A DNA stretch of 64,000 bases from Leucobacter sp. Psy1 (GTDB lineage Bacteria > Actinomycetota > Actinomycetes > Actinomycetales > Microbacteriaceae), in assembly GCF_020096995.1 (NCBI RefSeq), contig NZ_CP083692.1, positions 372,001 through 436,000 on the forward strand, read 5' to 3'. A model generated the notes under the pieces. It was not told the origin of the DNA. It did not search any database and saw only the letters and a program-made list of their open reading frames with translations. Below are positions 5,789 to 54,026 of this stretch, in pieces (position 1 is the stretch's first letter; each line of letters opens with the position of its first letter). The translations under genes and the position numbers were made by a program.

Positions 5789-7450
5789 TCAGGGTCGGCT
5801 AGCGAGTTCCCAGGGGGCCGGGGTCGGGAAGTACGTCTCGAGCCAGTCCCTGAGGTAGGCGATGTTCTCGGCGGTGGCGTCCGGGTTGTCGTTGATGCAG
5901 AAGGTTGCGGCCTTGCGCGACTTCAGCTGCGCGGCGAGACGCGGCATGAACTCGGGGTCGCTGAGGTCGAAGTAGTTGTAGAGAATGTCGCCGGGCATCG
6001 TCTGCTTGCGCACGTAACCGAAGTAGTGGTGCAGCCACCCGTTGATCTCGGTGTCGTCGGGGGAGCGGAGCTGATGCGACCACGTCGAGGTGAAGACCTC
6101 GGGGAACTCGTTCTCGAGTTCAAGCAGTAGATGACGGAGCTGCGGGATCGGCGTGTGGTAGAAGATCCGCGTCGCCGTGACTCCGTATTCGCGCTCGAGG
6201 AGGTCGACCGCGTTGCGGCGAGCGGACTCATGGGTGAGATCGAATTCGGATGCGACCGGCAGCGTCGACTTGGAGAGGAAGAACCGGGCGACGCCGTTCG
6301 GCTCGAAGAACTGGTTCGCCGGGATGTCGTGCCCGATGAAGACGTCGTCGTTGAAGATCAGGTAGCGGTCGGAGAGGCCATCGATGTGGTGCAGACGGCC
6401 GGCGATCGCGTGCGAGTTGTATGTGGGAAGTGCGCCGGCGTCGCCGAACAGCTCCCGATGATCCACCATGCGGATCCGCGGATGGGACGTGTCGAGCCAG
6501 CTCGGCGTCTGCCCGTCGGTCACGAGGATGATGTTGCGCACCCAGTCGCAGTGCTGGAACACCGAACGCATCGAGTACTTGAGTTCACCGTTGTCGCGGA
6601 AGCGTGAGGGATCGATGCTGTCTGCAGGTGCGACGCCGGTGAGCTCCTCGATCACGCGGTCGCGCCTGGCGCTCCACTCGGCGTCCGCTCCGTCGACCCA
6701 CAGGAAGACGACGTCGACGGGTTCCCGCGTCTCGAAGACCGTCGGGCGGTCGAGCGGCGCGAAAGTCGGCACCTCCACGCCGTGGAGTTCTGTGGTCGCC
6801 GGGGTCATCGCCGACGGGTCGATGGATGCCGTGCGGGTGTTCTTCGCCGCGGTTTCGAGGGAGCCGTCCTCGGCGCGGCCCCAGCGTTCGACGACGGTCG
6901 CCTCCGCGCGTCCCATGCGGCGCACATGGTCGGGGTCGATGAAGAACTCGAAGAGTTCGATGGTGCTCTGCTCCTGGAGCGCTCGGCGTGCCGCTGACGA
7001 GTCTGCCCGCACGACGGAGCGCCGCTTCTTGCCCGAGGGGTTTACGGTCTCGATGCCGAGGTGCAGGGTGCCGTCATCACCCGAGGCCTCCGTGCCCACG
7101 GCGTCGGCGAAGCGCTGCCAGTGCTCCTGTTCGACGGCGATGGTGGCGTCGGTTCGGGTGGCGTTGGGTACGGCGAAGAAGGGGACGTCGTGCTCGCGCA
7201 AGAGAGCGACGGTGTTCGCGAAGTTGCGCCGCCTGGCGTCGTGCTGGGTGATGCCGGGGGCGCGCCTCGCGAGCCAGACCCGCTCGTAGGCGTAGACGAT
7301 CCCAAGATCGGCGTCGCCGGCGACGGTCGATCGGAACCGCGCACTCAGGGCGCGCCGCCGCAACCGCTCGGCAGGATCCTTCACCACGGTGAAGGGGCCG
7401 CGCCGCAGCACGCTGAGGAGCAGGCTGCGCGAGGGGGTGTTCACGGGCAT
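5789..7450 (-). CDS. Stealth-family sugar-phosphate transferase
   Basis: A 553-residue cytosolic or membrane-associated enzyme of the Stealth family, which transfers sugar-1-phosphate units from nucleotide sugars to build phosphodiester-linked capsules. The conserved regions appear in order: CR1 VDVVFLWVDGADAEW (about residue 245), CR2 RFRDNGELKYSMRSV and NIILVTDGQ (about 283-310), CR3 YNSHAIAGRLHHI and YLIFNDDVFIGH (about 343-370), and CR4 around STWSHQLRSPDDTEINGWLH (about 457). The first 240 residues are a variable region. The ATG at 7450 has GAAGGA 10 bp upstream; an in-frame ATG at 7501 is possible but less well placed. It is divergent from a CDP-glycerol-type phosphotransferase and starts the surface-polymer locus. 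Confidence 0.88.
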   Translation of the reverse strand: MPVNTPSRSLLLSVLRRGPFTVVKDPAERLRRRALSARFRSTVAGDADLGIVYAYERVWLARRAPGITQHDARRRNFANTVALLREHDVPFFAVPNATRTDATIAVEQEHWQRFADAVGTEASGDDGTLHLGIETVNPSGKKRRSVVRADSSAARRALQEQSTIELFEFFIDPDHVRRMGRAEATVVERWGRAEDGSLETAAKNTRTASIDPSAMTPATTELHGVEVPTFAPLDRPTVFETREPVDVVFLWVDGADAEWSARRDRVIEELTGVAPADSIDPSRFRDNGELKYSMRSVFQHCDWVRNIILVTDGQTPSWLDTSHPRIRMVDHRELFGDAGALPTYNSHAIAGRLHHIDGLSDRYLIFNDDVFIGHDIPANQFFEPNGVARFFLSKSTLPVASEFDLTHESARRNAVDLLEREYGVTATRIFYHTPIPQLRHLLLELENEFPEVFTSTWSHQLRSPDDTEINGWLHHYFGYVRKQTMPGDILYNYFDLSDPEFMPRLAAQLKSRKAATFCINDNPDATAENIAYLRDWLETYFPTPAPWELASRP

Positions 7451-7561
7451 CGGTTCGGCGTCCTTCGGTCGAGTCTCACAGCTGGCCTTGCATTCCAGCA
7501 TCTCACGCCGAGCTCCCCTGAACCTCAAGGGCAGCCGACTAGAGTAGTGGGCAGGGAACCC

Positions 7562-7582: not shown

Positions 7583-7614
7583 CGTCCGAGAACCGACATC
7601 GGAAGCGGGTGCGT

Positions 7615-9228
7615 ATGACTCTTCGGCACCGCGCGCTGTGGGCGCGGCTGATCGGGGACCGCCTGTGGGTGCTGCTGTACGCCTACGACCACCGTAAGCG
7701 GTCCGGCCGGCCCGCGAAGATCACGGTGGCTGTCGGCGATTCGGGCCGTCCGCAGCGGATCGACGTTCCCGTCGCCTCGCGCCAGCCGAAGTCTCCGCTG
7801 GCGCTGCTCCGCTGCTTCCATCTCCTGCGGCTGCCTTTGCCCGAGGGCAACGAGGGTGAAGTCAATCACCGCGTGCGATTCACTATCGAGCAGGAGAGCG
7901 GTCGGAAGCGCCTCGGTGTCAGGTATCCGCGACGGCGCCCCGAGCAGCACCCCCGACTCAACTACGCACCGGTGTCCCCGCGGTTCCGCGGCGGCTCTGC
8001 GGAGCACCTGCGTCGCACGGCGAAGGACCTGCTGGTGTTCGTGCGCAGGCCGATGGTGCCGCGGGAGCGCACGCTCCGCTTCCGGTTGCGCGAGTCCTGG
8101 CTCGTCTCGGCGCTGCTCTTCCTCGCGACCGCCGTAGCGCGAGGCACCAGCCGGCGCCGGGTGACCGTGTTCTACGAGAAGTTCGCCGCCCACGCCGACG
8201 AGGGCGCCTTCGAGCTGTTCACCGAGTTCCAGCGGCACGCGCCCGACACCTACTTCGTCATCGATGCGTCGAGCCCCGACTACGCCCGGACGGCACGTCA
8301 CCCCCGCACGCTGCGGAAGTACAGCTGGCGATACTACTGGGCGATCTACCGTGCCGATACCTATGTCGGCACCGAGATCCCGACCCATCTCAGTCTCCTC
8401 CGGTCGAACAATGGCTGGTTGCGGCGGCGGATCTACACCACCCCGTACGTCTTCCTGCAGCACGGCATCATCTACCTCAAGAACCTGTCGCGGTCGCCCT
8501 TCGCCCGCGGACGCGAGGGGGAAGCGGCGTACATCGTGGCGAGCAGCGCGAAGGAGCGCGACGTGATCGTTCGGGATCTCGGGCTGACGCCCGACCAGGT
8601 CCTCATCACGGGGCTCGGACAGTTCGGGCTGCTGCAACCAGGAACCATCGGCCCCGGGACTGCTGACGTGGTCACGATCATGCCCACGTGGCGAGCCGAG
8701 GACGAGGCGGTCGAGGACTTCTCGGAGACGACCTATGCGCGGGTGATGACCGAGGCCGTCGACGCGATCCGAAGCGTCTCGCGAGACGCCCGGATCCGAC
8801 TCGTGCCGCACCCGAAGGTCGCCGAGCAACTCGCTTCGACCTCGCTGGCCGCGGACCTGTGGGCCGGCTCGGTCGCGGACGCTCTGCACGACACCAAGCT
8901 GCTCATCACCGACTATTCGTCGATCGCCTACAACGCGTTCTACCGCGGGGCCGCCGTGTTGTTCTTCCAGCCTGACCTGTCGGCATACGAAGCGAGGACG
9001 GGACCGCTGATCCCGGCGCCGGAGGAGTACGTCGGGTACCGCACGTTCGATGCCACGGGCCTGCGGGCCATCGCTGCGACGGGACTCTCGCGGGATGGAG
9101 TGATCGACCTCGCCGCCTTCCGCACGGCCGAGCACGAGCGCCAGTACGCGCTCATCAACGAGTTCGACGACGGTCGCAACCTGGACCGGATCCAGGCCGA
9201 GCTCCGCCGGGTGCTGCTTGACGAGTGA
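7615..9228 (+). CDS. CDP-glycerol/CDP-ribitol glycerophosphotransferase family (TagF/TarL-like)
   Basis: A 537-residue GT-B type phosphotransferase predicted to move glycerol-phosphate or ribitol-phosphate from its CDP donor to a teichoic-acid-like chain at the inner membrane face. The catalytic half spans about residues 180-537: YEKFAAHADEGAFELF, VFLQHGIIYLKN (about 278), VVTIMPTWRAED, RLVPHPKVAEQ and ITDYSSIAYNAFYRG (DYSS near 432). The HG and DYSS motifs are the family hallmarks. The start chosen is ATG 7615, nine bases after GGAAG; the GTG at 7609 would be only three bases from it. A weak membrane protein gene follows immediately. Confidence 0.88.
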   Translation: MTLRHRALWARLIGDRLWVLLYAYDHRKRSGRPAKITVAVGDSGRPQRIDVPVASRQPKSPLALLRCFHLLRLPLPEGNEGEVNHRVRFTIEQESGRKRLGVRYPRRRPEQHPRLNYAPVSPRFRGGSAEHLRRTAKDLLVFVRRPMVPRERTLRFRLRESWLVSALLFLATAVARGTSRRRVTVFYEKFAAHADEGAFELFTEFQRHAPDTYFVIDASSPDYARTARHPRTLRKYSWRYYWAIYRADTYVGTEIPTHLSLLRSNNGWLRRRIYTTPYVFLQHGIIYLKNLSRSPFARGREGEAAYIVASSAKERDVIVRDLGLTPDQVLITGLGQFGLLQPGTIGPGTADVVTIMPTWRAEDEAVEDFSETTYARVMTEAVDAIRSVSRDARIRLVPHPKVAEQLASTSLAADLWAGSVADALHDTKLLITDYSSIAYNAFYRGAAVLFFQPDLSAYEARTGPLIPAPEEYVGYRTFDATGLRAIAATGLSRDGVIDLAAFRTAEHERQYALINEFDDGRNLDRIQAELRRVLLDE

Positions 9229-9235: not shown

Positions 9236-9769
9236 ATGCGGTCGCCGCGCTCGCCGCAGCGGCCGATGGCGTTCACCGGTGCCGAGTTCCTCCGCGGCGG
9301 TGTCTGGGCCATCGGCATCTTCATCGTGGCGCTGCCGTGGGTCACGTTCATCGGTTCGTCCAGTTTCGCGGGTGAGAGCGCTACGCCCGGCAGGACCGAG
9401 TTTGCCATCGTGCCATACGTCATGCTGCTCGCCGGTGCGATCGCAGGGTTCGTGTACGTCACCTATGGGAGTGCGCTCGCCTATCTGCTCGGACGCGCGC
9501 TTCGAAGCACACGTCGTCGTTCAGTTCATCGTGTCTGCTTCGCTGCGCTCGGGTTGCTCATCGGCTACGTCACCCTGATGCTCACGGACCTCGCGGGGAT
9601 CACGATGGTGTCCGGGAGCGCGGGGGCGGGGGCCCCGAGCATGCTGTCCGCGCTCATCTCGGTGGCCGCGGGTGCCTCGGTGCTCGCCGGCTGGGAGATC
9701 ACGAGCGCGAAGGCGCTGCGCGCAGATGCGTGGATGCTCCGAGACCGTGACGCGTCAACGGAGACCTGA
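9236..9769 (+). CDS. Hypothetical four-helix membrane protein
   Basis: A 177-residue protein with four strongly hydrophobic segments: GGVWAIGIFIVALPWVTFIG, a long one containing YVMLLAGAIAGFVYVTYG, AALGLLIGYVTLMLTDLAG and LISVAAGASVLAGWEI. I recognise no family. It begins a few bases after the stop of the phosphotransferase gene and is probably cotranscribed. The exact start is uncertain: GTG 9233, ATG 9236 or ATG 9266 are all possible, and none has a clear ribosome site. It converges with the 9854 gene, leaving 84 bp in which I see no terminator. Confidence 0.65.
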   Translation: MRSPRSPQRPMAFTGAEFLRGGVWAIGIFIVALPWVTFIGSSSFAGESATPGRTEFAIVPYVMLLAGAIAGFVYVTYGSALAYLLGRALRSTRRRSVHRVCFAALGLLIGYVTLMLTDLAGITMVSGSAGAGAPSMLSALISVAAGASVLAGWEITSAKALRADAWMLRDRDASTET

Positions 9770-9853
9770 CTTGGGGTGGATGCGTGACGTCGCCACGGCG
9801 CTCAACTGCCGGATGGTCGTCGAGCCGTCGGGCTGGGGCGGGTCGGTCAGCGG

Positions 9854-11572
9854 TTAGTCCTGTCCTGCCGCGAAGGTGAAGCCCTGTGCGCGATGCCGCT
9901 CCTCGGCGCGTGCGAGATCCTCTTTCGCGGTGCGCACGAAGACGTCCGCGTAGCCGTCGGCGGGAAGATCCCCGAGATAGTGGCGGCGCATTTCTCGACG
10001 CATATCAGCGAGAGGATCGTTGCCGAGCATCGCGGCCAGCTGCTCATCCCAGACCGTCTCGTCGGTACCGGGGAAGATGTATGCGGACCGTGCGAGCGGA
10101 AGCTCCCGAATCAGCTCCTCAGGTGAAGAGGCGCCCGTCATCAGTCCCAACGGCTTCCCCGAGTACAGGTAGTCCGACACCACACTCGAGACGTCGGCAA
10201 GCATCGCATCGCTGATGTTGAAGCAGTCGTTCACCGTCATCTCTGTCTCCGCGGCGAACCCGAACAGGTGACCGGTATCGCTACTCTCATTATCCGCGCG
10301 GAGCCGGTCGTGGATGCGATCGATGGCGGCCGAGAGCGCCCCATCCTGGCGGCTGTACGGGTGCGGACGGAAAACGATTCGAGATCCGCGCTCGATCAGC
10401 CTGTCGAGGAGGGGCTCGATCATGAGCAGCGAGCTGTAGGTCGAATCGTTGAAGTACCCGCGCCAGGTCGGCGCGTAAAGCACCGTCGGACGGTCTTTCT
10501 CGCCGATGGGAGAGTCATCACGGATGACGTCCTCGACCTGCGGCCTGCCGACGATGGCGAACTTGTCCTCTGGGATTCTCACGTTGTTGTCCGCATAGCG
10601 GTCGATCCCTGCCTGCCCGGCGACGTAAATGCGGTCGTACATAGCGGTGACCGGGTTGTAGCTCGAGGCTTTCTCGCTGTCTCCGTGGAGGAGCTGGATG
10701 TGCGTGAGATGGTTGTATCGCACCATATGCGCATTGCGGTCGGCATTGTTCACGTAGAACACCGTCGAGACGGTGGCAGGCAGGATATTGTCGATCGAAC
10801 TGAGCGTCCGCGCGAAGACGATCGGGTGGTTGGGAACTGCTGCGATCGCCTCGGGAAGACTCCCGGCATTGCGGACCACCACGATGAAGCGCTCTCCCAG
10901 ACGCTCGAGGAACGGGAGCCACATCTTGATCTGGTAGGCGCTGTTGACCGGCGCGACCCAGTACAGGATGAACGTGGGATCGTAGCTCTCGAGACGACTC
11001 TGCAACTCTGCGAACAAGCGGTCGCCGGCCCGACGCCGGCGGAGGGCCTGAATGAGCGCGACGAGTGCGATGATCGCCACGGCAGCGGCGCACACGGCCA
11101 GCGCCACGCCGTGGAGTTGGGCGACCGCAAACGCCATCAGCAGGGCAGGAAGCGCGAGCAGCGTGAGCATCAGTGCCGTGAGCGTCCTGGGGTGGGGCTG
11201 GGGGAGGTCCGCGCCCGGGAGGTTGATCACGTCGAAGGGGAGGCTGCGTGAGATTTCGAGGATTCCACGCGAGAACCTGATGAGGAACACCGTCACGCTC
11301 AACGCCAACCATGCGAAGAGCGCGCCGTTCGCATCGCCGTAGATGAGGGGACCTGCGATACCGAAGGTGAACGAGATGCGTGTCGCCACCTGCGTTACGG
11401 CGTGATTGCGCCAACGCCGGTACCTGATCTCCCTGATCTGACGGACGAGAAGGAGGCCGTACCCGAGTACCCAGACGGCGAGCCCTGTCCACAGGAACCC
11501 TGCCAGGAGGGCGACGCTCCCGAGCACCGCTGACAGCGCGATGACGGCTCCGGGAACTTTAGTGCGGAGCAT
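9854..11572 (-). CDS. Membrane-anchored CDP-glycerol/ribitol glycerophosphotransferase
   Basis: A 572-residue protein with an N-terminal membrane part of about 200 residues (at least four hydrophobic stretches, such as VIALSAVLGSVALLAGFLW and LTLLALPALLMAFAVAQ) and a C-terminal phosphotransferase domain. The domain shows ILYWVAPVNSAYQIKMWLPF, IQLLHGDSEK (about 292), VLYAPTWRGYF (about 370), IVFRPHPYS and MLADVSSVVSDYLYSGKP (about 455). The DVSSV motif replaces DYSS. The ATG at 11572 follows AGAGGA at 5-bp spacing; upstream in-frame sequence belongs to the SDR gene. It is third in the operon 12995 to 9854 behind the CDP-ribitol synthesis pair, so ribitol-phosphate is the likely unit (inference). 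Confidence 0.85.
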   Translation of the reverse strand: MLRTKVPGAVIALSAVLGSVALLAGFLWTGLAVWVLGYGLLLVRQIREIRYRRWRNHAVTQVATRISFTFGIAGPLIYGDANGALFAWLALSVTVFLIRFSRGILEISRSLPFDVINLPGADLPQPHPRTLTALMLTLLALPALLMAFAVAQLHGVALAVCAAAVAIIALVALIQALRRRRAGDRLFAELQSRLESYDPTFILYWVAPVNSAYQIKMWLPFLERLGERFIVVVRNAGSLPEAIAAVPNHPIVFARTLSSIDNILPATVSTVFYVNNADRNAHMVRYNHLTHIQLLHGDSEKASSYNPVTAMYDRIYVAGQAGIDRYADNNVRIPEDKFAIVGRPQVEDVIRDDSPIGEKDRPTVLYAPTWRGYFNDSTYSSLLMIEPLLDRLIERGSRIVFRPHPYSRQDGALSAAIDRIHDRLRADNESSDTGHLFGFAAETEMTVNDCFNISDAMLADVSSVVSDYLYSGKPLGLMTGASSPEELIRELPLARSAYIFPGTDETVWDEQLAAMLGNDPLADMRREMRRHYLGDLPADGYADVFVRTAKEDLARAEERHRAQGFTFAAGQD

Positions 11573-11607
11573 GCTGGTCCTCTCCGAATGGAACGGTCGC
11601 GAGCGGC

Positions 11608-12315
11608 CTACTGTCGGACAACGAGGTTCTCCGAGTCGATGTACTGGCCGACCGGAGACGCGAGCATGCCGATCACTTCCGCAACGCTGTCCGGCTGCAT
11701 GATCGTCGCCGGATCCTCGTCGGGAGCGAGGACCTTTCGGAGGTCGGTCGCTGTCCGTCCAGGAGAAATGCTGACGACCCGAGTGCCGAAGATCGCGAGT
11801 TCTTCGCGCAGGACGTCGCTCATGTTGATGAGGGCGGCCTTCGACGCCGAGTACGTGAGCCACCCGGAACGTCCCTTGATGCCAGCGGTCGACGCGATGT
11901 TCACGATGAGGTCGAAACTGTTCCCCTGATGGAGGAGGTCCTGGATCAGCGTGAATGGGCCGTACAGGTTCACTGACATGGTGCGTTCGAAGTCCTCGAA
12001 CTCGATCTGGTGTACCGGAACGGGGTTCGTGTAGCCCGCATTGTTCACGAGTATGTCGATATTGCCGACGCGCTCGCCGAGAGGCTTGAGCGCCTCCTGG
12101 AGTGCACTGCGATCTCCGACGTCGACGGTGAGGTCGACCACCTGCTTGCCGAGCTGCTCGGCTTCTGAGCGCAACTCTTCGAGGGTCGCTTCGTACGCCG
12201 AGGACGGCCGTGCCGCTACGACGATGGTAGAGACCTCGGGACTCTGCAGGAGCCGCTTCGCAGTTTCGCGGCCGATGCCGCGCGAAGCCCCGGTGATCAG
12301 CGCAGTCTTGCTCAT
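11608..12315 (-). CDS. SDR oxidoreductase, likely ribulose-5-phosphate reductase of CDP-ribitol synthesis
   Basis: A 235-residue classical SDR: TGASRGIG (cofactor loop, residues 8-15), VNNAG, IASTAG (catalytic Ser) and YSASK (catalytic Tyr/Lys). The tail SPGRTATDLRK recalls the reductase domain of bifunctional CDP-ribitol synthases (Acs1/Bcs1 of Haemophilus), which are an IspD-like domain followed by an SDR domain. Here the same two parts are separate genes in the same order, with a 4-bp ATGA overlap. The predicted reaction is D-ribulose 5-phosphate to D-ribitol 5-phosphate with NADPH. A general SDR with another substrate is the alternative. Confidence 0.85.
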   Translation of the reverse strand: MSKTALITGASRGIGRETAKRLLQSPEVSTIVVAARPSSAYEATLEELRSEAEQLGKQVVDLTVDVGDRSALQEALKPLGERVGNIDILVNNAGYTNPVPVHQIEFEDFERTMSVNLYGPFTLIQDLLHQGNSFDLIVNIASTAGIKGRSGWLTYSASKAALINMSDVLREELAIFGTRVVSISPGRTATDLRKVLAPDEDPATIMQPDSVAEVIGMLASPVGQYIDSENLVVRQ

Positions 12316-12995
12316 TCTTCCTCCTCGCCGTCGTGCATGAGGAACGCCGCGAGACGGACGTCCACCGGGGTGGTCACCTTCAGATTGATGTCGGATCCGT
12401 CGACGAAGTGAACCGGATACCCCTGCGTGGCGACGAGCGTCGCGTCCTCGGTAAACGTCTCGTGTCGTTCGGCCGCTGCCGCGTGAGCGGTGGCGAGGTC
12501 ATCCTTAGCGAACTTCTGCGGAAGCTGAACGTTGCGCAGTCTGCTCCGATCGAGAGAGCCCGTCACGGTGTGCGCCTCGGGGTCGACCGGGGCGACCGTG
12601 AATGGGATGGGGTGCATCAGCGAGACGTTGCGGTGCTCGGAGTCGATCAGGCGCCGGAAGTCCTGAGCACTCGCCAGCGGTCGAGCCGCCTCGTGGACGA
12701 GGACCTGCTCGTACGTTGCGTGCGGCACGAGTGCCGCAACGGACTCGTGCCGAGTTGCTCCGGCCTCGACGTAGGTCACCGGAGTCTCGATCGCGTAGTC
12801 GGCGACGAGCTTCTGGACGGCATCGAGCTGACCAGCGGGAAAGTTCATCACGATCTCGGCGATCTCCGGGATCCGGTCAGCGACCGTAAGGGGGTAGACC
12901 AACAGTGGAATCCCCTTCACCTTCAAGAACTGCTTGGGTTGCCCAGCACCGACGCGGCTACCGATGCCGCCGTTGAGCAGGAGGAGGGAATACAT
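12312..12995 (-). CDS. IspD/TarI-family cytidylyltransferase, likely D-ribitol-5-phosphate cytidylyltransferase
   Basis: A 227-residue nucleotidyltransferase that would make CDP-ribitol from CTP and ribitol 5-phosphate. The motifs are LLLNGGIGSRVGAGQPKQF (nucleotide binding), TRHESV, VHEAARPL, RNVQLPQKF and TEDATLV with INLKVTTPVD. All are positions conserved between IspD and TarI. Its place in front of an SDR and among CDP-polyol phosphotransferases favours TarI over IspD of the MEP pathway, since ispD normally sits with ispF. The start ATG 12995 is chosen because the domain begins there; upstream in-frame residues look non-coding. AAAGGTG lies 13 bases upstream. Confidence 0.85.
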   Translation of the reverse strand: MYSLLLLNGGIGSRVGAGQPKQFLKVKGIPLLVYPLTVADRIPEIAEIVMNFPAGQLDAVQKLVADYAIETPVTYVEAGATRHESVAALVPHATYEQVLVHEAARPLASAQDFRRLIDSEHRNVSLMHPIPFTVAPVDPEAHTVTGSLDRSRLRNVQLPQKFAKDDLATAHAAAAERHETFTEDATLVATQGYPVHFVDGSDINLKVTTPVDVRLAAFLMHDGEEEE

Positions 12996-13037
12996 GCGAG
13001 AAGTTACACCTTTGGTTTGCTTATCGGACCTCTGTGA

Positions 13038-13067
13038 ACAGTAACCAAAGTGCAGGACAACGATCAA
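13038..13067 (-). promoter_or_regulatory. Candidate promoter for the 12995-9854 operon
   Basis: On the minus strand TTGATC (13062-13067) is followed after 18 bp by TACTGT (13038-13043), about 40 bp upstream of the cytidylyltransferase ATG. The match to a sigma-70-type promoter is moderate. The 200-bp divergent gap (12996-13195) is the most AT-rich stretch nearby. Confidence 0.35.
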
Positions 13068-13153
13068 TCGAGATACGCAATTGTGATCGACTGGTGATTA
13101 TTTCTCAGTACGGGCAAATCACGTCCTCCTCAGCGGAGTGGAGCTAACCTAAA

Positions 13154-13185
13154 GGTCGTAAACCGTTCATCCCCTATTTACGACC
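13154..13185. promoter_or_regulatory. 9-bp perfect inverted repeat upstream of the two-domain phosphotransferase gene
   Basis: GGTCGTAAA (13154-13162) and TTTACGACC (13177-13185) are separated by 14 bases and end 10 bases before the proposed start. A TAACCT that could serve as a -10 box lies at 13145-13150. The repeat could be an operator or a leader hairpin. Confidence 0.55.
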
Positions 13186-13195
13186 GGATTCCTCA

Positions 13196-16100: not shown

Positions 16101-16669
16101 GGGCGATGCTCATTTCCGAAGAGCAGCGCGTCGTGCTCTACGCTCCGACGTTCCGAGACGATCAGTTCAGTACACGCGGGCGCTTCACCTTCGATCTTCC
16201 GATGGACTTCGATCGCTTCGTGCAGTCGACTCCCGACGACACCATCCTGCTCCTCCGCTTGCACACCCTGATCTCTCGAGGGATCGAGATCCCGCAGGAG
16301 CTGCAGGGTCGTATTCGCGATGTCTCGGCGTACGACGAGATCCAGGATCTGCTCCTCATCTCGGATGTTCTGGTGACCGACTACTCGTCAGTCTTCTTCG
16401 ACGCGGCGGTGCTCGAGCGTCCGATCGTCTTCTACGCATACGATCTCGAGCAGTATCGAGACCGTTTGAGGGGGTTCTACCTCGATTACGAATCGGAAGT
16501 GCCCGGCCCCGTGGTGACCTCGGAGCAGGCGCTGTGGGAATCGGTCTCAGATGCCCTCGAGGGGGCGATCGATCGGCAGGCGAGGCAGGAGTTCGTGCGG
16601 CGTTTCAACCCCGCTGATGACGGAAGCGCGTCCGCTCGAGTGGTGGAGCGTCTCATCCTCGGTCAGTGA
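13196..16669 (+). CDS. Two-domain CDP-glycerol/ribitol phosphotransferase (polymerase)
   Basis: A 1157-residue protein with two complete TagF-like catalytic domains. Residues 1 to about 380 form a region of no known function, rich in predicted beta structure. Domain 1 (about 398-750) has IWIIGELPYKAQDNG, VFLQHGVMGTKW, VLVMPTWRDW, LCLHPNMQRY and ITDYSSVGFDFSFQERP. Domain 2 (about 795-1150) has GLVVFESHVGKQYSDSPRY, YIQTWHGTPLKKM, VVLYAPTFRDDQF and VTDYSSVFFDAAVLERP. Two active sites suggest a chain polymerase or alternating-linkage enzyme. The TTG at 13196 is the farthest start in frame with no clear ribosome site, so the N-terminus is uncertain. It is divergent from the CDP-ribitol operon. Confidence 0.9.
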   Translation: MPRLNRAIGRFSIARERRNQVRRSVRAGVSPSAAARVSGNQFELEQEFSEAFPIGLVVGWRDRVLGRFDVESRIGENGSQRACASVSLTEIEEMYRTARRHLAADAEAEAARTGDEVDDAVEFPTLILQIAWVFGPSSSAADSSYLRGYIHDGWIVPAKRASAIIRAAGGSEDLCDWICWAGNSAELSLSENHRLPSEVGVAEIRGNRFNSLIFAVGEPEATRVAAYADSIDVQSSRITVAGRIGVLTGGIDAAEFVWKAHATGSEFLGPATLQLDEMWTLHDAGRKTYLFTAEVVFDPARWDELVLRDNFDAYLRLRDSRSGEQIDARLTRVPFLARLFHTESTAQSAGGVLTILPYFTFKAKALSARVEYFPTEISPLLDPSGAMARRAKRVRQRDRPIWIIGELPYKAQDNGMHFYRWMREHHPEIDAYYVLQKDSPERKNLGYFDHVIEHGSREHFELALAADKFVGTHHVDYLYPTQNPDYVKHLRGTRVFLQHGVMGTKWMVPNYGKDVPGFATDLFITSSEYEKSYIVSDFGYDEDEVVVTGLPRFDRLLAPGSSAEPGTVLVMPTWRDWLRSAEDFTDTEYFKRWHGLLTSEAFTRVLQQRGLTVTLCLHPNMQRYSHLFEGAHVRVVYQGEEDVQSLMMRSACMITDYSSVGFDFSFQERPVIYFQFDRTRFIGKYGSHINLDAELPGYVCFGELQVTARLDELAAAGFVQPEALRDRSHKFLAHRDTDHSRRVYEAISATSVSRRHYTRPGLVEARSVAFKWYRRSGLYYPSMKAMYRVVSRLPRKRGLVVFESHVGKQYSDSPRYIYEELSRRSPDSPKVWVLDRPHRFSDPGTSAVTRLSPGYFWNLARAETWVFNQNAPHYLQRPPKTTYIQTWHGTPLKKMQHDLAQVFGRDEGYLDRVTAATEQWTHLLSPSAYATAAFRSAFRYDGTVVELGYPRNDPLVSADRDARAAEIRRAMLISEEQRVVLYAPTFRDDQFSTRGRFTFDLPMDFDRFVQSTPDDTILLLRLHTLISRGIEIPQELQGRIRDVSAYDEIQDLLLISDVLVTDYSSVFFDAAVLERPIVFYAYDLEQYRDRLRGFYLDYESEVPGPVVTSEQALWESVSDALEGAIDRQARQEFVRRFNPADDGSASARVVERLILGQ

Positions 16670-16672
16670 CGA

Positions 16673-22915: not shown

Positions 22916-22923
22916 GGTGCCGC

Positions 22924-35341: not shown

Positions 35342-35347
35342 CGTGCG

Positions 35348-39526: not shown

Positions 39527-39570
39527 CCTACGCAGGGGCTCCGCAATACTCGGTGAGTACCATGGGGCCT

Positions 39571-44942: not shown

Positions 44943-47112
<2,170 letters not shown>

Positions 47113-47155
47113 GCGGGCCCCCTTCTCGCGTCCGACATCCGCAGCTTACGGCAAT

Positions 47156-47173
47156 ACTGCACGTTTGTGCAGT
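47156..47173. promoter_or_regulatory. Candidate operator for the SorC-type regulator
   Basis: ACTGCAC and GTGCAGT form a 7-bp perfect inverted repeat around GTTT, in the 127-bp gap between regulator and glpD. A possible glpD -35 (TTGAAA, 47178-47183) begins five bases downstream, followed after 18 bp by a weak -10 (CACAGT, 47202-47207). Confidence 0.65.
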
Positions 47174-47239
47174 TCGTTTGAAATTCTTTGCGCCAGGGGT
47201 CCACAGTGGAGTTCTCACCGTTGATGAAAGGTCGATATC

Positions 47240-48964
47240 GTGTCGAACGCGTCCGTCCCTCGCTCCTCCGTCGCCGAGCTCCGCGAGCGCCCGGCAGCCG
47301 ACGTGCTGGTGATCGGGGGCGGCATCAACGGCATCGCGACGTTCCGCGACCTCGCGCTCCAGGGCGTCGATGTCGCGCTCGTCGAGCGCGGCGATTACGT
47401 CTCAGGCGCATCGTCTGCGTCGAGCCACATGGTGCACGGAGGCGTGCGCTACCTCGAGAACGGCGAGTTTCGTCTCGTGCGCGAATCGGTCACCGAGCGG
47501 AACCGTCTGCTGCGCACCGCCCCCCACTACGTGCGACCGCTGAAGACCACGATCCCGATCTTCAAGACCCTCTCCGGCATTCTCTCGGCGCCCGCGCGCC
47601 TGCTGATCACGCACGGCCGCGGCAAGCCGAATGAGCGCGGGGCGGCGCTCATCAAGGTCGGCCTCATGATCTACGACACCTTCTCCCGCGGCGGCGGCCA
47701 GGTGCCGCGCCACCGGTTCCACGGACGCAAGAAGTCGCTCGCCGAGTTCCCGCAGATGAACGCCGACGTGAAGTACACCGCCACGTACTACGACGCCTCG
47801 ATGCACGACCCCGAGCGCCTCGCCCTCGACGTCCTGTTCGACGGTGTGGCAGCGGGAGCAGCGGGCGACCGCGCCCGCGCGGCGAACTACGTCTCAGCGG
47901 TCGGCAGCACGGCCGGGCAGGTCCGTCTGCGCGACGAGAAGACCGGCGACGAGTTCGACTTCGCGGCGCGCGTCGTCGTCAACGCGAGCGGACCGTGGAC
48001 CGACCTGACGAACGCCGCGCTCGGCGAGGAGACGACGTTCATGGGCGGGACCAAGGGCTCGCACATCGTGCTCGACAACCCCGAGATGCTCGCCGCCACC
48101 CGGGGCAGGGAGATCTTCTTCGAGCACTCGGACGGCCGCATCGTGCTGATCTACCCGCTGAAGGATCGCGTCATGGTCGGCACGACCGACATCGACGCCG
48201 ATCCGGCCCAGTCGGTCATCTGCACCGACGAGGAGATCGACTACTTCTTCGACCTCATCGGCCACGTCTTCCCGCGGATCACGGTGGACCGCTCGCAGAT
48301 CGTCTACACGTTCTCCGGCATTCGCCCGCTGCCGAAGCACGATGACACGGCCCCCGGCTTCGTCTCCCGCGACTACCGGATCGTCGAGTCCGACCTCGAC
48401 GGGACGCCGCACCTCAGTCTCGTCGGCGGCAAGTGGACGACCTTCCGGGCGCTCGCCGCGAACCTCTCGGACCGCGTGCTCGCCCAGATGGGCCGGAAGC
48501 GCGAGCGGAGCACGGCTGACACGCCCATCGGCGGCGGACGCGACTTCCCGCAGACGCCGTCCGCTCGCGCCGCGTGGATCGCCGCGAACGGCGAGGGGCG
48601 CGATCCCGAGTTCGTCGACCGTCTGCTGGAGCGCTACGGCACCCGGGCGGTCGAGGTGCTCGCCGCACTGCCGGCAGATCCCACCGAGATCCCGGAGCTC
48701 CCGGGGTACTCGGTCGAAGAGCTTGCGCACCTCGCTGAGGCAGAGCAGATCGTGCACCTCGACGACCTGCTGCTCCGACGCACGTCGCTCGCGTTCGTCG
48801 GGGGGCTGACCCGCCAGGGTCTCGAGGCAGCCGCCGCGGCGATCGCCCCGGCGCTGGACTGGGACGAGGATCGGCGCGCGCGGGAGATCGATCGGGCAGT
48901 GGACACGCTCCGCTCCGCCCACCGCGTCGAACTCGGGAAGGAGGGGGTCGCTTCGCTCGGTTAG
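47240..48964 (+). CDS. glpD: Glycerol-3-phosphate dehydrogenase (FAD-dependent)
   Basis: A 574-residue membrane-associated flavoenzyme that oxidises glycerol 3-phosphate to dihydroxyacetone phosphate and passes electrons to quinone. Motifs: FAD-binding VIGGGINGIATFRDLALQG (about 24-42), SSHMVHGGVRYLE, VVNASGPWTDL, YPLKDRVMVGTTDID and LVGGKWTTFR, plus a C-terminal helical domain. GTG 47240 is eight bases after GAAAGG. It is first in the operon glpD-glpF-glpK and divergent from its probable regulator. Confidence 0.96.
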   Translation: MSNASVPRSSVAELRERPAADVLVIGGGINGIATFRDLALQGVDVALVERGDYVSGASSASSHMVHGGVRYLENGEFRLVRESVTERNRLLRTAPHYVRPLKTTIPIFKTLSGILSAPARLLITHGRGKPNERGAALIKVGLMIYDTFSRGGGQVPRHRFHGRKKSLAEFPQMNADVKYTATYYDASMHDPERLALDVLFDGVAAGAAGDRARAANYVSAVGSTAGQVRLRDEKTGDEFDFAARVVVNASGPWTDLTNAALGEETTFMGGTKGSHIVLDNPEMLAATRGREIFFEHSDGRIVLIYPLKDRVMVGTTDIDADPAQSVICTDEEIDYFFDLIGHVFPRITVDRSQIVYTFSGIRPLPKHDDTAPGFVSRDYRIVESDLDGTPHLSLVGGKWTTFRALAANLSDRVLAQMGRKRERSTADTPIGGGRDFPQTPSARAAWIAANGEGRDPEFVDRLLERYGTRAVEVLAALPADPTEIPELPGYSVEELAHLAEAEQIVHLDDLLLRRTSLAFVGGLTRQGLEAAAAAIAPALDWDEDRRAREIDRAVDTLRSAHRVELGKEGVASLG

Positions 48965-49049
48965 TCGCAATCCGGACGGGACCGCTACGGATCCGTCGCT
49001 TGTTCCGGTCCGCCCACAGCTCGACGGCGATCTCGTCGGCACACTCAGA

Positions 49050-49094
49050 CGCACCACGGCGGTGCGCGCAGAAGTCGCACCACGGCGGTGCGCG
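49050..49094. repeat. Tandem duplicated 19-bp hairpin upstream of glpF
   Basis: CGCACCACGGCGGTGCGCG occurs at 49050-49068 and again at 49076-49094. Each copy folds by itself (CGCACC/GGTGCG). Both lie in the 150-bp glpD-glpF gap, the second ending 20 bp before glpF. They could be an mRNA stabiliser or partial terminator. Confidence 0.75.
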
Positions 49095-49114
49095 AATGAA
49101 AGGTCAATGAGGAC

Positions 49115-49870
49115 ATGAATGATGTCAATCTCGGGTTGTATTTTCTCTCCGAGTTCGCGGGAACGACGTTCCTGCTGCTGTTCGGCTGCGGCGTCGTCGC
49201 CAACGTCGCCCTCGCGAAGACGAAGGGCAACAACGGCGGCTTCCTGATGGTCAACTGGGGGTGGGGCATCGCGGTCTTCGTCGGTGTCATGGCCTCCGCC
49301 TACTCCGGCGCCATGATCAATCCGGCCGTCTCGATCGGCCTGCTCGTACAGGGCACCATCGATGCGCCGATGTTCTTCGTCGCGCTTCCCGCTCAGCTGC
49401 TCGGCGGCATCGTGGGCGCGATCCTCGCCTGGCTCGCGTACCGCAAGCACTTCGACGAGGAGCCCGACCCCGCCGCGAAGCTCGGCGTGTTCTCGACCGG
49501 CCCCGCGATCCGCAGCTACGGCTCGAACCTCGTCACCGAGATCATCGGCACGTTCGCCCTGGTCTTCATCATCCTGGCGTTCGCCGACTACGGCGACGTG
49601 AACGTCGGGATCCCCGGAGGCCTCGGGCCGCTGACCGCACTGCCCGTCGCCCTGCTCGTCGTCGGTATCGGCGCCTCGCTCGGCGGACCCACCGGGTACG
49701 CCATCAACCCGGCCCGCGACCTCGGGCCGCGCATCGCGCACGCGATCCTCCCGATCAAGGGGAAGGGCTCCAGCGACTGGAGCTACGCCTGGGTGCCGGT
49801 CGTCGGCCCCATGATCGGTGGCGTGCTCGCCGCGCTCGCCGCACCACTCGCACTCGGGCTCGCAGCCTGA
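49115..49870 (+). CDS. glpF: Glycerol uptake facilitator (aquaglyceroporin)
   Basis: A 251-residue MIP-family channel with six membrane segments and both pore motifs: GAMINPAVS (about residue 66) and [12 protein letters not shown] (about 191), where the Asp after NPAR marks glycerol-conducting members. [22 protein letters not shown] is the standard first helix. It lets glycerol enter by facilitated diffusion. ATG 49115 follows GAGGA closely. The kinase gene begins 35 bp after its stop. Confidence 0.96.
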
Positions 49871-49905
49871 TCCCCATCCAACGACGGACGAAGGAGAACA
49901 CCAAC

Positions 49906-51420
49906 ATGTCGAAGTACGTCATCGCCATCGATCAGGGCACGACCTCGAGTCGCGCCATCATCTTCGATCGCTCGGGATCGATCGTCTCGGTCGGCCAGAA
50001 GGAGCACGAGCAGATCATGCCCCACGCGGGCTGGGTCGAGCACGACGCGACCGAGATCTGGCAGAACGTGCAGGAGGTCATCGGCAGCGCCCTCGGTCGC
50101 GCCGACATCACCAGGCACGACATCGCAGCGATCGGCATCACGAACCAGCGCGAGACCGCCGTGGTGTGGGATCGCAACACCGGCAAGCCGATCTACAACG
50201 CGATCGTCTGGCAGGACATCCGCACCCAGCCGATCGTCGACCGTCTGGCTGAGGACGGGGGCGTCGAGCGGTTCAAGAGCATCGTCGGGCTCCCGCTCGC
50301 GCCTTATTTCTCCGGCACGAAGATCGCCTGGATCCTCGAGAACGTCGACGGGGCGCGCGAAGCGGCCGATCGTGGCGACCTCATGTTCGGCACCACCGAC
50401 AGCTGGGTGCTCTGGAACCTCACCGGCGGTGTTGAGGGCGGCGTCCACGTCACCGACGTGACGAACGCCTCGCGCACCCTCTTCATGGACCTGGAGACGC
50501 TCGAGTGGCGCGACGACATCCTCGAGGTCTTCGGCGTGCCCCGCTCGATGCTCCCCGAGATCAAGTCCTCCTCCGAGGTCTACGGGTACGCCGAGGACTC
50601 CTCGCTGCTCCGGGAGACCCCGATCTCGGGCATCCTCGGAGATCAGCAGTCAGCCACGTTCGGCCAGGCGGCGTTCACCGCGGGCGAGAGCAAGAACACC
50701 TACGGCACCGGCTGCTTCCTGATCTTCCAGACGGGCGAGGAGATCATCCACTCTCAGAACGGGCTGCTCACCACCGTCGGATACAAGCTCGGAGACGGGC
50801 CGACCCACTATGCGCTCGAAGGATCGATCGCCGTCACCGGCTCGCTCATCCAGTGGCTGCGCGACCAGCTCGGCATCATCAACTCCGCACCCGAGGTTGA
50901 GGCGCTCGCCGACACCGTCGACGACAACGGCGGCGTCTACTTCGTCCCGGCGTTCTCGGGGCTGTTCGCACCGTACTGGCGGCCGGACGCGCGCGGTGCG
51001 ATCGTCGGGCTCACGCGCTACGTGACGAAGGCCCACATCGCCCGAGCGGCGCTCGAGGCCGTGGCGTTCCAGACGCGGGACGTGCTCGACGCCGTGAACG
51101 CCGACGCAGGGGTCGATCTGGCGGAACTCAAGGTCGATGGCGGCATGGTCGCGAACGACGCGCTCATGCAGTTCCAGGCCGACGTGCTCGGCGTGCCGGT
51201 GGTGCGCCCCGTCGTCGCCGAGACGACCGCGCTCGGCGCAGCGTACGCGGCCGGGCTGGCGGTCGGGTTCTGGAAGGACCTCGACGACCTCTCGTCGAAC
51301 TGGCAGGAGGACCGCCGCTGGGAGCCGGAGCTCGAGGAGGCCGAGCGCGACCGGCAGCTGCGCCTCTGGAGGAAGGCCGTCACGAAGTCGATGGACTGGG
51401 TGGACGAGGACCTCAAGTAG
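49906..51420 (+). CDS. glpK: Glycerol kinase
   Basis: A 504-residue FGGY-family kinase phosphorylating glycerol with ATP to glycerol 3-phosphate. It starts with [17 protein letters not shown] (phosphate binding) and has [54 protein letters not shown] and [19 protein letters not shown], the last being the second FGGY signature. AAGGAG nine bases before ATG 49906 confirms the start. It ends the glp operon, followed by a strong hairpin. Confidence 0.98.
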
Positions 51421-51519: not shown

Positions 51520-53148
51520 ATGCAGCAGGAGCTCTATCGGGTGATCCCCGATTCGGGACCCGAAGACCCCTTTGCTCGCCTCACCGATCTGCAGCGTGCG
51601 CAGCTCGACGGGATCCTCGCGTACCACGCGCTGCGCTCGCCCGGCGAGGAGTTCACCGTCGGCGTGACGGTCGGCGACCGCACGCAGGTGCCGATGACGA
51701 CCATCGACTCCGCAGCGGCTGACCCGGCGTTCACGGTGCGCGTGCAGAGCGCCGCCGTCGGCCGAGCACCGTCGATCTCGGACCGCAGCACAGATGCGCC
51801 GCGGCAGATCCGGATCGGGCACGCCGACGCCACCCCCGCCACGACGCGGCCCGTCGCGCCGCTCTCGCCAGCCCGCCGCGTCTACCGCGCGCTCGAGCGG
51901 ACGGCACCGACGGTGCTCGACCGGGTGCGCGAGACCGTGATGGGGCGCCGAGAGCGGGCGATCTCCGTCCCCCTGCCGCGCTACCCGGAAGGGCCCGCGG
52001 ATTCGGAGATCGCGGCCGGCGTCGCCGCTGCCGCACCGCCCGCACCGGCACCCGACACGGATCGGCCGGCGATCCTCTTCGGCCTCCACTGGCTCCAGAC
52101 CGGCGGGGCGGAGCGCTGGGCCGTCGAGACGGTGCAGATGGCGAAGGATCAGGGGTTCCTCCCCGTCGTCGTCACCGACCAGAACTCGGTGCACCCGTGG
52201 CTCACCCGCCCGGAGCTCGCCGACTGCGTGATCGTGACGACGAGCTTCGACGGTCCAGAGCCGCCGCAGGACCCCGACCTGCTCCGCGCCATCGTCGAGA
52301 ACTTCGACCTCCGCGGCGTCGTGATCCACCACAGCTACTGGCTGTACCGGGCACTGCCGTACCTGCGCGCCTGGCGGCCCGACCTTCCGGTGGTCGACTC
52401 GCTGCACATCGTCGAGTACCTCGGCGGTGGGTATCCGGGGCTCGCCGTCCGGTTCGATACCTGCATCGATCGGCACCACACCATCTCGCCAGAGCTGGAC
52501 CGTTGGCTCACCGAGGTGCAGGGGATCGACCCGGCCAAGCTCACGATGGCACCGCTCACGGCGCTCACCGTTGACGCCTCCCAGGAGTTCGCTCCTCGCT
52601 CACCCGACCGTGTCTTCACGATCGCGTACGTCGGCCGTCTGTCCAGGCAGAAGCGACCCGACGTCTTCCTCACACTGGTGCACCGCCTCGTGCGCGCCGG
52701 TGTGCCGGTGCGGGCGATCCTGCACGGTGACGGCGAACTCGCCCCCCTCGTCTCGGCGCTCCTCGAGCGCTACCGCCTCCACGACGTGGTCGAGCAGCGC
52801 TTCGAAGACGTTGCCGTCGCGCAGACGCTCGCAGACAGCGACCTGCTCGTCGTCACGTCGATCAACGAGGGGCTCACGCTCACGACCTTCGAAGCGGTCG
52901 CGGCCGGCATTCCGGTGCTCTCCGCGGACGTCGGATCCCAGCGCACCATCGTGCAGGGACGGCTCCTGCTGCCGCGCCCGGGCGGCGTCTTCGCTCGGCG
53001 CGCCGAGGCCGAGATCCGCCGGCTCGCCGCCTCGGAAACCGAGCGGGAGGCCGCCTGGGCGGAACAGCGCGACCGGGTCGCCGAGTTCGCCCGCCACGAC
53101 GAAGCACACCACATGATGAAGGAGCAGTTCGCACAATGGCAGGGGTAG
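51520..53148 (+). CDS. GT4-family glycosyltransferase with long N-terminal extension
   Basis: A 542-residue protein. The first 175 residues are a low-complexity, Ala/Pro/Arg-rich extension with no recognised domain. The GT-B catalytic part follows: ILFGLHWLQTGGAERWAVET, HSYWLYRALPYLRAW, VDSLHIVEYLGGGYPGL, IAYVGRLSRQKRPDVFLTLV, ILHGDGELAPLV and the donor block SINEGLTLTTFEAVAAGIPVL. The start ATG 51520 is next to GGGAGGGG. Its 3' end overlaps the GT2 gene by 13 bp, so the two are coupled. Confidence 0.87.
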   Translation: MQQELYRVIPDSGPEDPFARLTDLQRAQLDGILAYHALRSPGEEFTVGVTVGDRTQVPMTTIDSAAADPAFTVRVQSAAVGRAPSISDRSTDAPRQIRIGHADATPATTRPVAPLSPARRVYRALERTAPTVLDRVRETVMGRRERAISVPLPRYPEGPADSEIAAGVAAAAPPAPAPDTDRPAILFGLHWLQTGGAERWAVETVQMAKDQGFLPVVVTDQNSVHPWLTRPELADCVIVTTSFDGPEPPQDPDLLRAIVENFDLRGVVIHHSYWLYRALPYLRAWRPDLPVVDSLHIVEYLGGGYPGLAVRFDTCIDRHHTISPELDRWLTEVQGIDPAKLTMAPLTALTVDASQEFAPRSPDRVFTIAYVGRLSRQKRPDVFLTLVHRLVRAGVPVRAILHGDGELAPLVSALLERYRLHDVVEQRFEDVAVAQTLADSDLLVVTSINEGLTLTTFEAVAAGIPVLSADVGSQRTIVQGRLLLPRPGGVFARRAEAEIRRLAASETEREAAWAEQRDRVAEFARHDEAHHMMKEQFAQWQG

Positions 53149-54026
53149 CCGCAGTCATCGTCACCTTCAACCGGCTCGCGAAGCTGAAGAAGGTCATCGC
53201 CGCCATCGAGGCGCAGAGCGCACCGCCCGCGCACCTCGTCATCGTGGACAACGCTTCCACCGACGGCACAGGGGAGTATCTCGCGACCCTCGAGAGCCCG
53301 ATCCCCGTCGACATCGTCTCGCTCCCCACCAACACGGGCGGTGCCGGGGGTTTCTCGGCTGGCATGCGCCGCGGATACGAACTCGGTGCCGATTTCGTGT
53401 GGATCATGGACGACGACGGCTACCCCGAGCCGCCCGCCCTCGAACGACTGCTCTCCGGCCTCTCGGCGGCCTCCGACGAACTCGGCGCACCCGTGCCGTT
53501 CGCCTGCTCCGTCGTCGTCTTCACCGATGGCAACATCTGCGAGATGAACAACCCCGCTCCCACGTGGGACTGGGGCCGACTCCTCGTCAAGGGTCAGAAC
53601 GCCGTCATGGTGCAGCAGTGCTCCTTCGTCTCCGTCCTCATTCCAAGGTGGGTGCTCGAGGAGTTCGGGCTCCCCTTCAAGGAGTACTTCATCTGGTTCG
53701 ACGACGCCGAGTACACCTTCCGCATCACGCGGGAGACCCCGGGCGTCCAGGTGCTCGACAGCGTCACCGTGCACGACATGGGCATCAACCAGGGCGTCAA
53801 CTTCGGCATGATCGACGAGGGCAACGCGTGGAAGTTCGCCTACGGGGTCCGCAATCAGGCGTCGTACCAGCGCCATCACCGGTCCTGCCCGCACTTCCTG
53901 CTGTTCGCCGCGCAGGTGGTCGTCGGGATGCGCCGTGGCAGGGTCGCCCGCAAACTCCGTCGGCAGATGTACCGCAAGCTCTGGGAGGGGTTCCGCTTCA
54001 ATCCTGCGATCGACCGCGTGAGGTAG
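53136..54026 (+). CDS. GT2 glycosyltransferase, galactofuranosyl/rhamnosyltransferase-like (paralog of 42109)
   Basis: A 296-residue GT-A enzyme: AAVIVTFNRLAKLKKVIAAI, LVIVDNASTDGTGEYL, TNTGGAGGFSAGMRRGYEL, FVWIMDDDGYPEP (DxD), EYFIWFDDAEYTFRI and VTVHDMGINQGVN. It matches the protein at 42109-43095 block for block, including the EMNNP and SVLIPRW phrases, so they are paralogs with probably the same donor but different acceptors. ATG 53136 lies inside the previous gene. Confidence 0.9.
   Translation: MAGVAAVIVTFNRLAKLKKVIAAIEAQSAPPAHLVIVDNASTDGTGEYLATLESPIPVDIVSLPTNTGGAGGFSAGMRRGYELGADFVWIMDDDGYPEPPALERLLSGLSAASDELGAPVPFACSVVVFTDGNICEMNNPAPTWDWGRLLVKGQNAVMVQQCSFVSVLIPRWVLEEFGLPFKEYFIWFDDAEYTFRITRETPGVQVLDSVTVHDMGINQGVNFGMIDEGNAWKFAYGVRNQASYQRHHRSCPHFLLFAAQVVVGMRRGRVARKLRRQMYRKLWEGFRFNPAIDRVR

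Follow-up and report, generated by a model that had tools for sequence, protein, structure and literature searches.

What does a bacterial surface locus make when it gathers transferases of phosphate-linked units, a diamino-sugar route, galactofuranose (Galf) synthesis and two ATP-binding cassette (ABC) systems, and how might its chains be finished and exported? The question is raised by about 48 kb of DNA within a window of 64,000 nucleotides from Leucobacter sp. Psy1 (NZ_CP083692.1; G000:C1:372001-436000), whose 3.25-Mb genome is a single contig of 3,246,778 bases. A sequence-only reading of the window had proposed a phosphodiester-rich wall polymer with no obvious textbook equivalent. The locus makes wall or surface glycopolymer(s) from known, interchangeable parts, and its content is real in view of the scores over cut-offs and the conservation in relatives. 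This is much firmer than the mechanism proposed below, in which a LicD-methyltransferase protein (LicD-MT) would cap a Galf-containing chain and the LGFP domain of a Wzt-type ATPase would check it before export.

Families were assigned by Pfam scans of the reading frames of the window, and further by NCBIfam models, relatives in the PDB and structure models searched with Foldseek; gene and domain assignments, the limits of the modules, fusions and co-occurrence are read directly from the DNA. The comparator was Leucobacter tardus K 70/01, and a survey covered 80 named loci picked via their WbpB gene, with at most 10 kb on each side and in some cases less. The literature is cited from excerpts of the papers.

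The Wzt tail, LicD-MT and DUF6752

The genes on which the proposal is built are the following (positions in the window, strand, family and score):

16673..17821, -, Wzt-type ATPase (ABC_tran) with C-terminal LGFP domain (LGFP tail)
17805..18671, -, Wzm-type permease (ABC2_membrane, 58.1 bits)
23598..24632, +, probably secreted protein without LGFP repeats (tblastn 64-77% identity)
42109..43095, -, GlfT1-like family 2 glycosyltransferase, GT2 (GlfT1 79.4 bits, cut-off 330)
43088..43297, -, DUF6752, short helix with heptad-like pattern (PF20537 35.7 bits, cut-off 27)
43294..44904, -, LicD-MT, 536 residues, proposed chain terminator (LicD 25.0, Methyltransf_25 33.1 bits)
45003..46148, +, UDP-galactopyranose mutase, GLF (TIGR00031 335.6 bits, equivalog cut-off 303.75)
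53136..54026, +, second GlfT1-like GT2 (GlfT1 77.2 bits, cut-off 330)

The window Wzt exceeds the Arthrobacter-type protein by about 130 residues, and its tail alone matches LGFP with 23.9 bits (cut-off 22), the tail of locus L087 reaching 35.6 bits. Among the matches listed, at least 12 genomes carry PF08310 on their long Wzt, the highest score being 37.7 bits. Eleven such tails share 37-63% identity with the first of them, and of the 11 Leucobacter-named loci with Wzm, 10 have a Wzt that the tail profile matches, while it matches no Wzt of the other named loci. A structure model of the tail (pLDDT 87.8) was matched by Foldseek at E<=0.001 only by the LGFP domain of MytA (three chains; E 2.3e-5), so that profile and model together predict an LGFP domain on the Wzt ATPase. 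The combination is new here, no paper on Wzt together with LGFP having been found in the one open-licence library searched. The fold is known from wall binding in Corynebacterium, where the MytA domain of C. glutamicum (PDB 6swz, 6sx4) is reported to bind peptidoglycan-arabinogalactan (PMC11299179); that domain acts outside the cell on the wall, whereas the one on Wzt would have to be cytosolic, and its binding of sugar is putative.

The genes for the GlfT1-like GT2, DUF6752 and LicD-MT overlap in the window by 4 bp or a few bases. In relatives, DUF6752 directly follows LicD-MT on the same strand in all 14 copies found (13 relatives; 20 stretches fetched), and in seven of them both lie in the same open reading frame. 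A LicD-MT-DUF6752 fusion is also present in the Arthrobacter locus L133 (E 1.3e-6); the Pfam match on the fusion passes the cut-off in L242 but not in L239 or L133. Moreover, genome G021 holds a GlfT1-like GT2 with a C-terminal DUF6752 (L234:4663-6132), and next to it lie two Wzm/Wzt pairs and a fused LicD-MT-DUF6752. Relatives of LicD take CDP-linked donors, and in L133, G022 and G053 a divergent LicD-MT gene is adjoined by CDP-polyol genes.

LicD-MT also accompanies the long Wzt, defined as a match reaching query residue 360 or beyond, shorter matches being counted as absent. Among 54 Leucobacter genomes (the tandem copies of G021 counting as one genome), LicD-MT occurs in 34 and long Wzt in 33: both are found in 32, LicD-MT only in two, long Wzt only in one and neither in 19. 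Among the 45 better genomes, left after nine were dropped by completeness and contamination, the corresponding counts are 31, two, one and 11. The pair lies on one contig in 27 of the 32 genomes with both, within 40 kb in 26 of those 27. The loci L098 and L231, whose contigs are equal in length, probably stem from one Leucobacter contig and hence are not independent.

A possible route of capping and export

The structure of the polymer, the nature of its cap, the ligand of the LGFP domain and the export check are what we infer from these data, and the resulting scheme, a locus of three modules with LicD-MT capping and LGFP-gated Wzm/Wzt export of a Galf-containing chain, is given about even weight. 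In the first module, UDP-ManNAc3NAcA (the UDP-linked 2,3-diacetamido-2,3-dideoxymannuronic acid) would be made by enzymes in the WbpA, WbpB, WbpE, WbpD and WbpI roles and added by family 4 glycosyltransferases (GT4), its units possibly being flipped by a fused ABC exporter. In the second, GLF and the two GlfT1-like GT2s would build a Galf-containing chain, on the growing end of which LicD-MT would put a phosphate-linked group and a methyl group, with DUF6752 tethering this terminator to the Galf transferase; the finished chain would then be bound by the LGFP tail of Wzt and exported by Wzm/Wzt. The third module (9263-16705) would be accessory, a source of CDP-polyol and of three TagF-like domains. 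The Galf module is suggested by GLF, as the sequence-only reading had proposed, by GlfT1 being the best NCBIfam match of both GT2s, and by the match of Wzt to the galactan exporter model (152.2 bits, below its cut-off of 400).

A more tentative view, held with more doubt than confidence, is that of a Gram-positive cap-and-check export, in which the LicD-MT terminator would be joined via DUF6752 to the Galf transferase and a cytosolic LGFP lectin on Wzt would read the chain, while in many relatives the same LGFP module on a probably secreted protein encoded in the cluster would hold that protein to the exported polymer. A large protein with LGFP-type repeats like those of the Wzt tail lies between the GT2 gene GT2a and WbpE, or nearby, in 12 of 15 Leucobacter-named loci, and those of four loci were checked with Pfam (99.7-331.9 bits). 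The window protein at 23598-24632, the signal peptide of which was judged by eye, matches only the N-terminal stretch of the multi-LGFP proteins that relatives have in this position; it gave no Pfam match up to E 1 and may be a shortened or alternative form of them.

By analogy, the locus would work like the WbdD/Wzt system of E. coli O9a and Klebsiella O antigens: in the O9a type, a coiled-coil terminator is reported to cap the chain and the binding module of Wzt to admit capped chains (PMC11231755). Alike in both would be a terminator with a methyltransferase and an added helical part, and a sugar-binding C-terminal domain on Wzt, the helical part and the sugar binding being putative here; here LicD stands in place of the kinase and LGFP in place of the carbohydrate-binding module, the host is Gram-positive, and cap and selectivity are putative. 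With mycobacterial galactan, for which Glf, GlfT1, GlfT2 and Wzm-Wzt are reported (PMC10951656), the locus has in common Galf supply, GlfT1-like GT2s and an ABC exporter, whereas the LGFP tail and LicD-MT are extra here and GlfT2 was not among the matches listed for the two GT2s. If the proposal is true, termination-coupled ABC export of the O-antigen type has an actinobacterial wall counterpart, with another terminator chemistry and another sugar-reading domain; DUF6752, LicD-MT and intracellular LGFP gain a testable function; and a handle is obtained on the length of Gram-positive galactofuran-type chains, a question that the excerpts on mycobacterial galactan leave open (PMC10951656).

Several observations weigh against the proposal. 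LGFP falls below the cut-off in the whole window Wzt (19.7 bits) and in the Wzt tails of L. tardus (16.1), L098 (20.4) and L099 (17.9), and among the matches listed no PF08310 match at E<=0.001 was found in six of the 33 long-Wzt genomes (G005, G012, G020, G022, G027 and G031). The LicD match (cut-off 22.6) spans only 32 of 227 profile positions, the structure model of LicD-MT is poor (pLDDT 57.4) and its PDB matches are weak, FKRP being the best plausible one (E 0.018). A kinase domain as in WbdD was not found in this protein, which has the methyltransferase and LicD instead; the locus is not filed as a member of the WbdD/Wzt system, the terminator kinase being absent. DUF6752 is short, and the window copy shows a weak heptad pattern, that of L133 being stronger: in three chosen peptides, the heptad moment was reached by 633 (window), 302 and 14 (L133) of 20000 shuffles. 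Genome G018 has long Wzt without LicD-MT and G028 and G053 have the reverse, and the Fisher p of the co-occurrence (2e-11) is descriptive rather than a true probability, since the genomes are related. As regards the sugars, the GlfT1 scores lie far under the equivalog cut-off, so that Galf transfer is likely yet unproven, and the epimerase of the first module is also over the wecB equivalog cut-off (269 vs 210.15), which makes ManNAcA another possible product.

LicD enzymes usually decorate, and LicD-MT may do so here, as a side-chain enzyme that places a phosphate-linked group and a methyl group along the chain, with the LGFP tail as an assembly part or a non-selective polymer-binding part and no check of an end cap. 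This reading, possible although rather unlikely, draws on the three genomes just named, in which LicD-MT and long Wzt live apart, and on the tail-less Wzt that serves Galf-type loci of Arthrobacter and others; it sits poorly with the tight co-occurrence and linkage of LicD-MT and long Wzt, and with DUF6752 standing at, or fused to, the C-terminus of LicD-MT, like the coiled coil reported for WbdD (PMC11231755).

The diamino-sugar core and the variable phosphotransferases

The genes assigned to the first module, together with further transferases and the second ABC system, are:

18668..19414, -, WbpD-role N-acetyltransferase, hexapeptide, LpxA-like (Hexapep 82.2 bits; 8e62 102.7 bits)
19442..20425, -, WbpB-role Gfo/Idh oxidoreductase (Pfam)
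20532..22481, -, DUF6541 membrane protein, candidate GT-C transferase (PF20176 498.5 bits)
22478..23185, -, DUF2304 small membrane protein (PF10066 71.8 bits)
22924..23688, -, GT2, probably polyprenyl-phosphate-sugar synthase (PF00535 72.7 bits)
24751..25863, +, WbpE-role aminotransferase (PF01041 414.5 bits)
25878..27107, +, GT4 glycosyltransferase (Pfam)
27029..28270, +, GT4-like protein, weak (18.6 bits, cut-off 27)
28267..30048, +, fused ABC exporter, possible lipid-linked glycan flippase (ABC_tran 105 bits)
30045..31217, +, glycosyltransferase, barely below cut-off (26.1 bits, cut-off 27)
31214..32383, +, GT4 glycosyltransferase (Pfam)
32299..33498, +, GT4 glycosyltransferase (Pfam)
38447..39526, -, WbpI-role UDP-GlcNAc3NAcA 2-epimerase (8sxv 354.5 bits)
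39553..40662, +, GT4 glycosyltransferase (Pfam)
40667..41962, +, UDP-HexNAc 6-dehydrogenase, WbpA role (TIGR03026 309.2 bits, cut-off 189.8; 4r16 217.1)
51520..53148, +, GT4 glycosyltransferase (Pfam)

The predicted 2,3-diamino sugar route is present and can be narrowed: judging from sequence, the five enzymes probably lead to UDP-ManNAc3NAcA. This is argued by the epimerase, which is nearest to UDP-GlcNAc3NAcA 2-epimerase (8sxv, vs 262.8 bits for 4neq and 124.4 for the E. coli-type UDP-GlcNAc epimerase 1f6d), by the WbpE match of the aminotransferase (3nyu 228.2 bits; 7b0d higher at 274.8) and by the presence of the five enzyme families in one locus. The WbpB and WbpD roles are assigned from gene context, the families being general Gfo/Idh and LpxA-like; the WbpB-role protein scores 212.9 bits with the UDP-GlcNAc 3-dehydrogenase model (cut-off 450), and its best general Gfo/Idh match is 74.8. 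Where seven or more glycosyltransferases had been claimed, ten candidates were counted, eight of them above the Pfam cut-off, and both expected ABC systems, Wzm/Wzt and the fused exporter, were seen. The DUF6541 protein may be a GT-C transferase.

Among the 80 WbpB loci, GLF is found in 36, Wzm in 50 and both in 34; UDP-sugar dehydrogenase (UGD) and WbpE in addition in 32, and the epimerase as well in 27. Stealth is found in one (L. tardus), a TagF-like domain in five, LicD-MT in two and the IspD-like gene in one. The core of diamino-sugar, Galf and exporter genes is ordinary, and the phosphotransferases are the variable part. Two of the survey loci, L145 (titled Vibrio cholerae 35D) and L119 (Sporosarcina beigongshangi), resemble Arthrobacter-type clusters and are possibly mislabelled or contaminated records.

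The phosphotransferase genes and the CDP-polyol pair occupy the start of the locus:

5789..7528, -, Stealth-family sugar-1-phosphate transferase (CR1-CR4 all over the Pfam cut-off)
7609..9228, +, TagF-like phosphotransferase 1 (PF04464 60.0 bits, cut-off 22.1; 82% identity in L. tardus)
9263..16705, 7.4-kb block, replaced by 41 bp in L. tardus (GC of its coding parts 0.61-0.63)
9854..11863, -, TagF-like protein 2 (PF04464 45.0 bits; true start probably near 11572)
11608..12315, -, short-chain dehydrogenase/reductase (SDR) of the CDP-polyol pair (adh_short 160 bits)
12312..13067, -, IspD-like cytidylyltransferase (PF01128 139.4 bits)
13196..16669, +, TarS_C1 domain and two TagF-like domains, 1157 residues (Pfam)

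All the expected families of phosphate-linked-unit transferases are present over Pfam cut-offs: Stealth, three TagF-like genes with four PF04464 domains, and LicD. The Stealth protein has CpsY (8j2n) as its best solved relative (204.7 bits) and is 90% identical to the L. tardus copy. The protein at 7609-9228 carries HG, PHP and TDYSS, taken here as TagF-like family motifs, and no PDB relative of it was matched; in TagF-like protein 2, N-terminal membrane segments are predicted, as judged by eye. The frame at 7525-9462 (-) was rejected as a gene, having no Pfam match and overlapping 7609-9228 (+). The 1157-residue protein is closer to TarF/TagF (TagF 3l7i 274.4 bits vs TarL 96.8 among solved relatives; TarF model 349.5, cut-off 550) and lies far from a TarL-type ribitol-phosphate polymerase (TarL model 140.4, cut-off 1000). 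Multi-domain TagF-like proteins are common to this locus and the TagF-like capsule polymerases, whose domains are reported to move polyol-phosphate or hexose-phosphate (PMC5974469); here, Pfam matched neither a GT-A nor a GT-B partner domain in the three TagF-like proteins.

As for the CDP-ribitol synthesis proposed earlier, the IspD-like/SDR pair exists, but the product named for it was not borne out. Among solved relatives, the IspD-like gene is nearest to the MEP-pathway IspD (91 bits vs 54.6 for the ribitol-5-phosphate cytidylyltransferase 6xhp), so ribitol as the CDP-polyol product is unproven; given that the ribitol model also stays below its cut-off (83 vs 166 bits) and the polymerase is nearer TagF/TarF, CDP-ribitol was rejected as a demonstrated product. 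A housekeeping role of the gene was rejected as well, because a better-scoring IspD lies elsewhere in the genome (G000:C1:2404852), and the window copy looks dedicated. Further TagF-like genes occur at G000:C1:2206192-2210545 and 1892337-1899184, where a second Wzt (1898306-1899184, frame of 444 residues) and a matching Wzm adjoin a single TagF-like gene; these regions are probably other wall polymer loci.

The two arms of the locus, which run from hemQ to GT2a and from Epim2 to PCuAC, keep their gene order in L. tardus, where they lie on two contigs, and most of the identities fall within 61-98%. The central part diverges: identity is 47% in the fused exporter, 50% in GT4a, 39-44% in GTy-like and 27% in GTx-like genes, CWB2a has no best hit and a second WbpE-like gene is present. 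The L. tardus dehydrogenase gene, 97% identical to that of the window, is duplicated around the CWB2b protein (G048:C1:2-6019 and the end of G048:C6), and the assembly breaks inside one copy. The block at 9263-16705, delimited by blastn breakpoints with GC computed by segment, is surrounded by DNA of 0.65-0.68 GC and contains all but one of the four TagF-like domains together with the CDP-polyol pair. Since L. tardus is devoid of them, the phosphodiester-rich character is partly accessory and the parts do not behave as a single inherited unit. Near hemQ, another polymerase set with a short Wzt is found in three of eight further relatives examined (G044, G050 and G053), which suggests that genes are exchanged at this position. 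The locus illustrates how wall polymers change via swapped phosphotransferase modules beside a conserved exporter.

That the block was lost in L. tardus, and not gained in the window lineage, is unlikely: two genomes alone cannot set the direction, and distant IspD/SDR/TagF-like sets stand near Wzm/Wzt in G022 and G053 (27-33% identity), but the GC of the block is lower and the 1157-residue protein, the sole one tested genus-wide, has no full-length match among the matches listed in 53 other Leucobacter genomes (best, one domain at 40%).

With two export systems and separable modules, at least two polymers, or a backbone with attached chains, are as likely as one polymer. The genes lie in one stretch, and in Streptomyces griseus a single molecule is reported to combine a ManNAc3NAcA chain with ribitol-phosphate teichoic acid (PMC13274773), but the earlier view of phosphodiester, diamino-sugar and Galf in one repeating unit is very improbable, for L. 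tardus retains the rest of both arms without three of the four TagF-like domains, the modules stand apart in relatives and there are two export systems. The utr locus of that actinobacterium, which serves a teichuronic-acid-like polymer carried on ribitol-phosphate wall teichoic acid, has in common with the window the five UDP-ManNAc3NAcA roles near teichoic-acid-type genes; its gene content is reported to vary between species, the excerpted text mentions no gene for Galf, Stealth, LicD or Wzm/Wzt, and its attaching enzyme is TarS-like (PMC13274773), whereas the Leucobacter locus has only a TarS_C1 domain inside a TagF-like protein.

The reading as a wall or surface glycopolymer locus stands, and its full gene set corresponds to none of the known polymers; the diamino-sugar, Galf and Wzm set is common, and the parts do not behave as a single inherited unit. 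Scattering among unrelated partners, which the sequence-only reading had named as evidence against itself, is seen in part: the phosphotransferases show it, the Galf, diamino-sugar and Wzm/Wzt genes do not. No paper on a Leucobacter wall polymer was recognisable by title in the library mentioned above.

Interrupting genes and genome context

The stretch is not a pure polymer cluster, being interrupted by the probably secreted protein already described and by two further sets of genes:

33560..38344, + and -, two CWB2 cell-wall-binding proteins (PF04122 193.8 and 190.0 bits)
46132..51420, glycerol-use genes: SorC-type regulator (-), GlpD (+) and GlpK (+; over equivalog cut-off)

The second set was rejected as polymer genes, GlpD, GlpK and the SorC-type regulator serving glycerol use. 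The frame at 20605-22764 (-), with no Pfam match, was also rejected, the overlapping 20532-22481 (-) being the gene. The candidates for initiation and attachment, four LCP ligase genes and two Bac_transf genes, all lie outside the window, so that both steps would need enzymes from elsewhere in the genome (TagO-type PF00953 was not searched). Finally, the second CWB2 protein shows weak reprolysin-like matches, and the CWB2 pair may bind the product of the locus.

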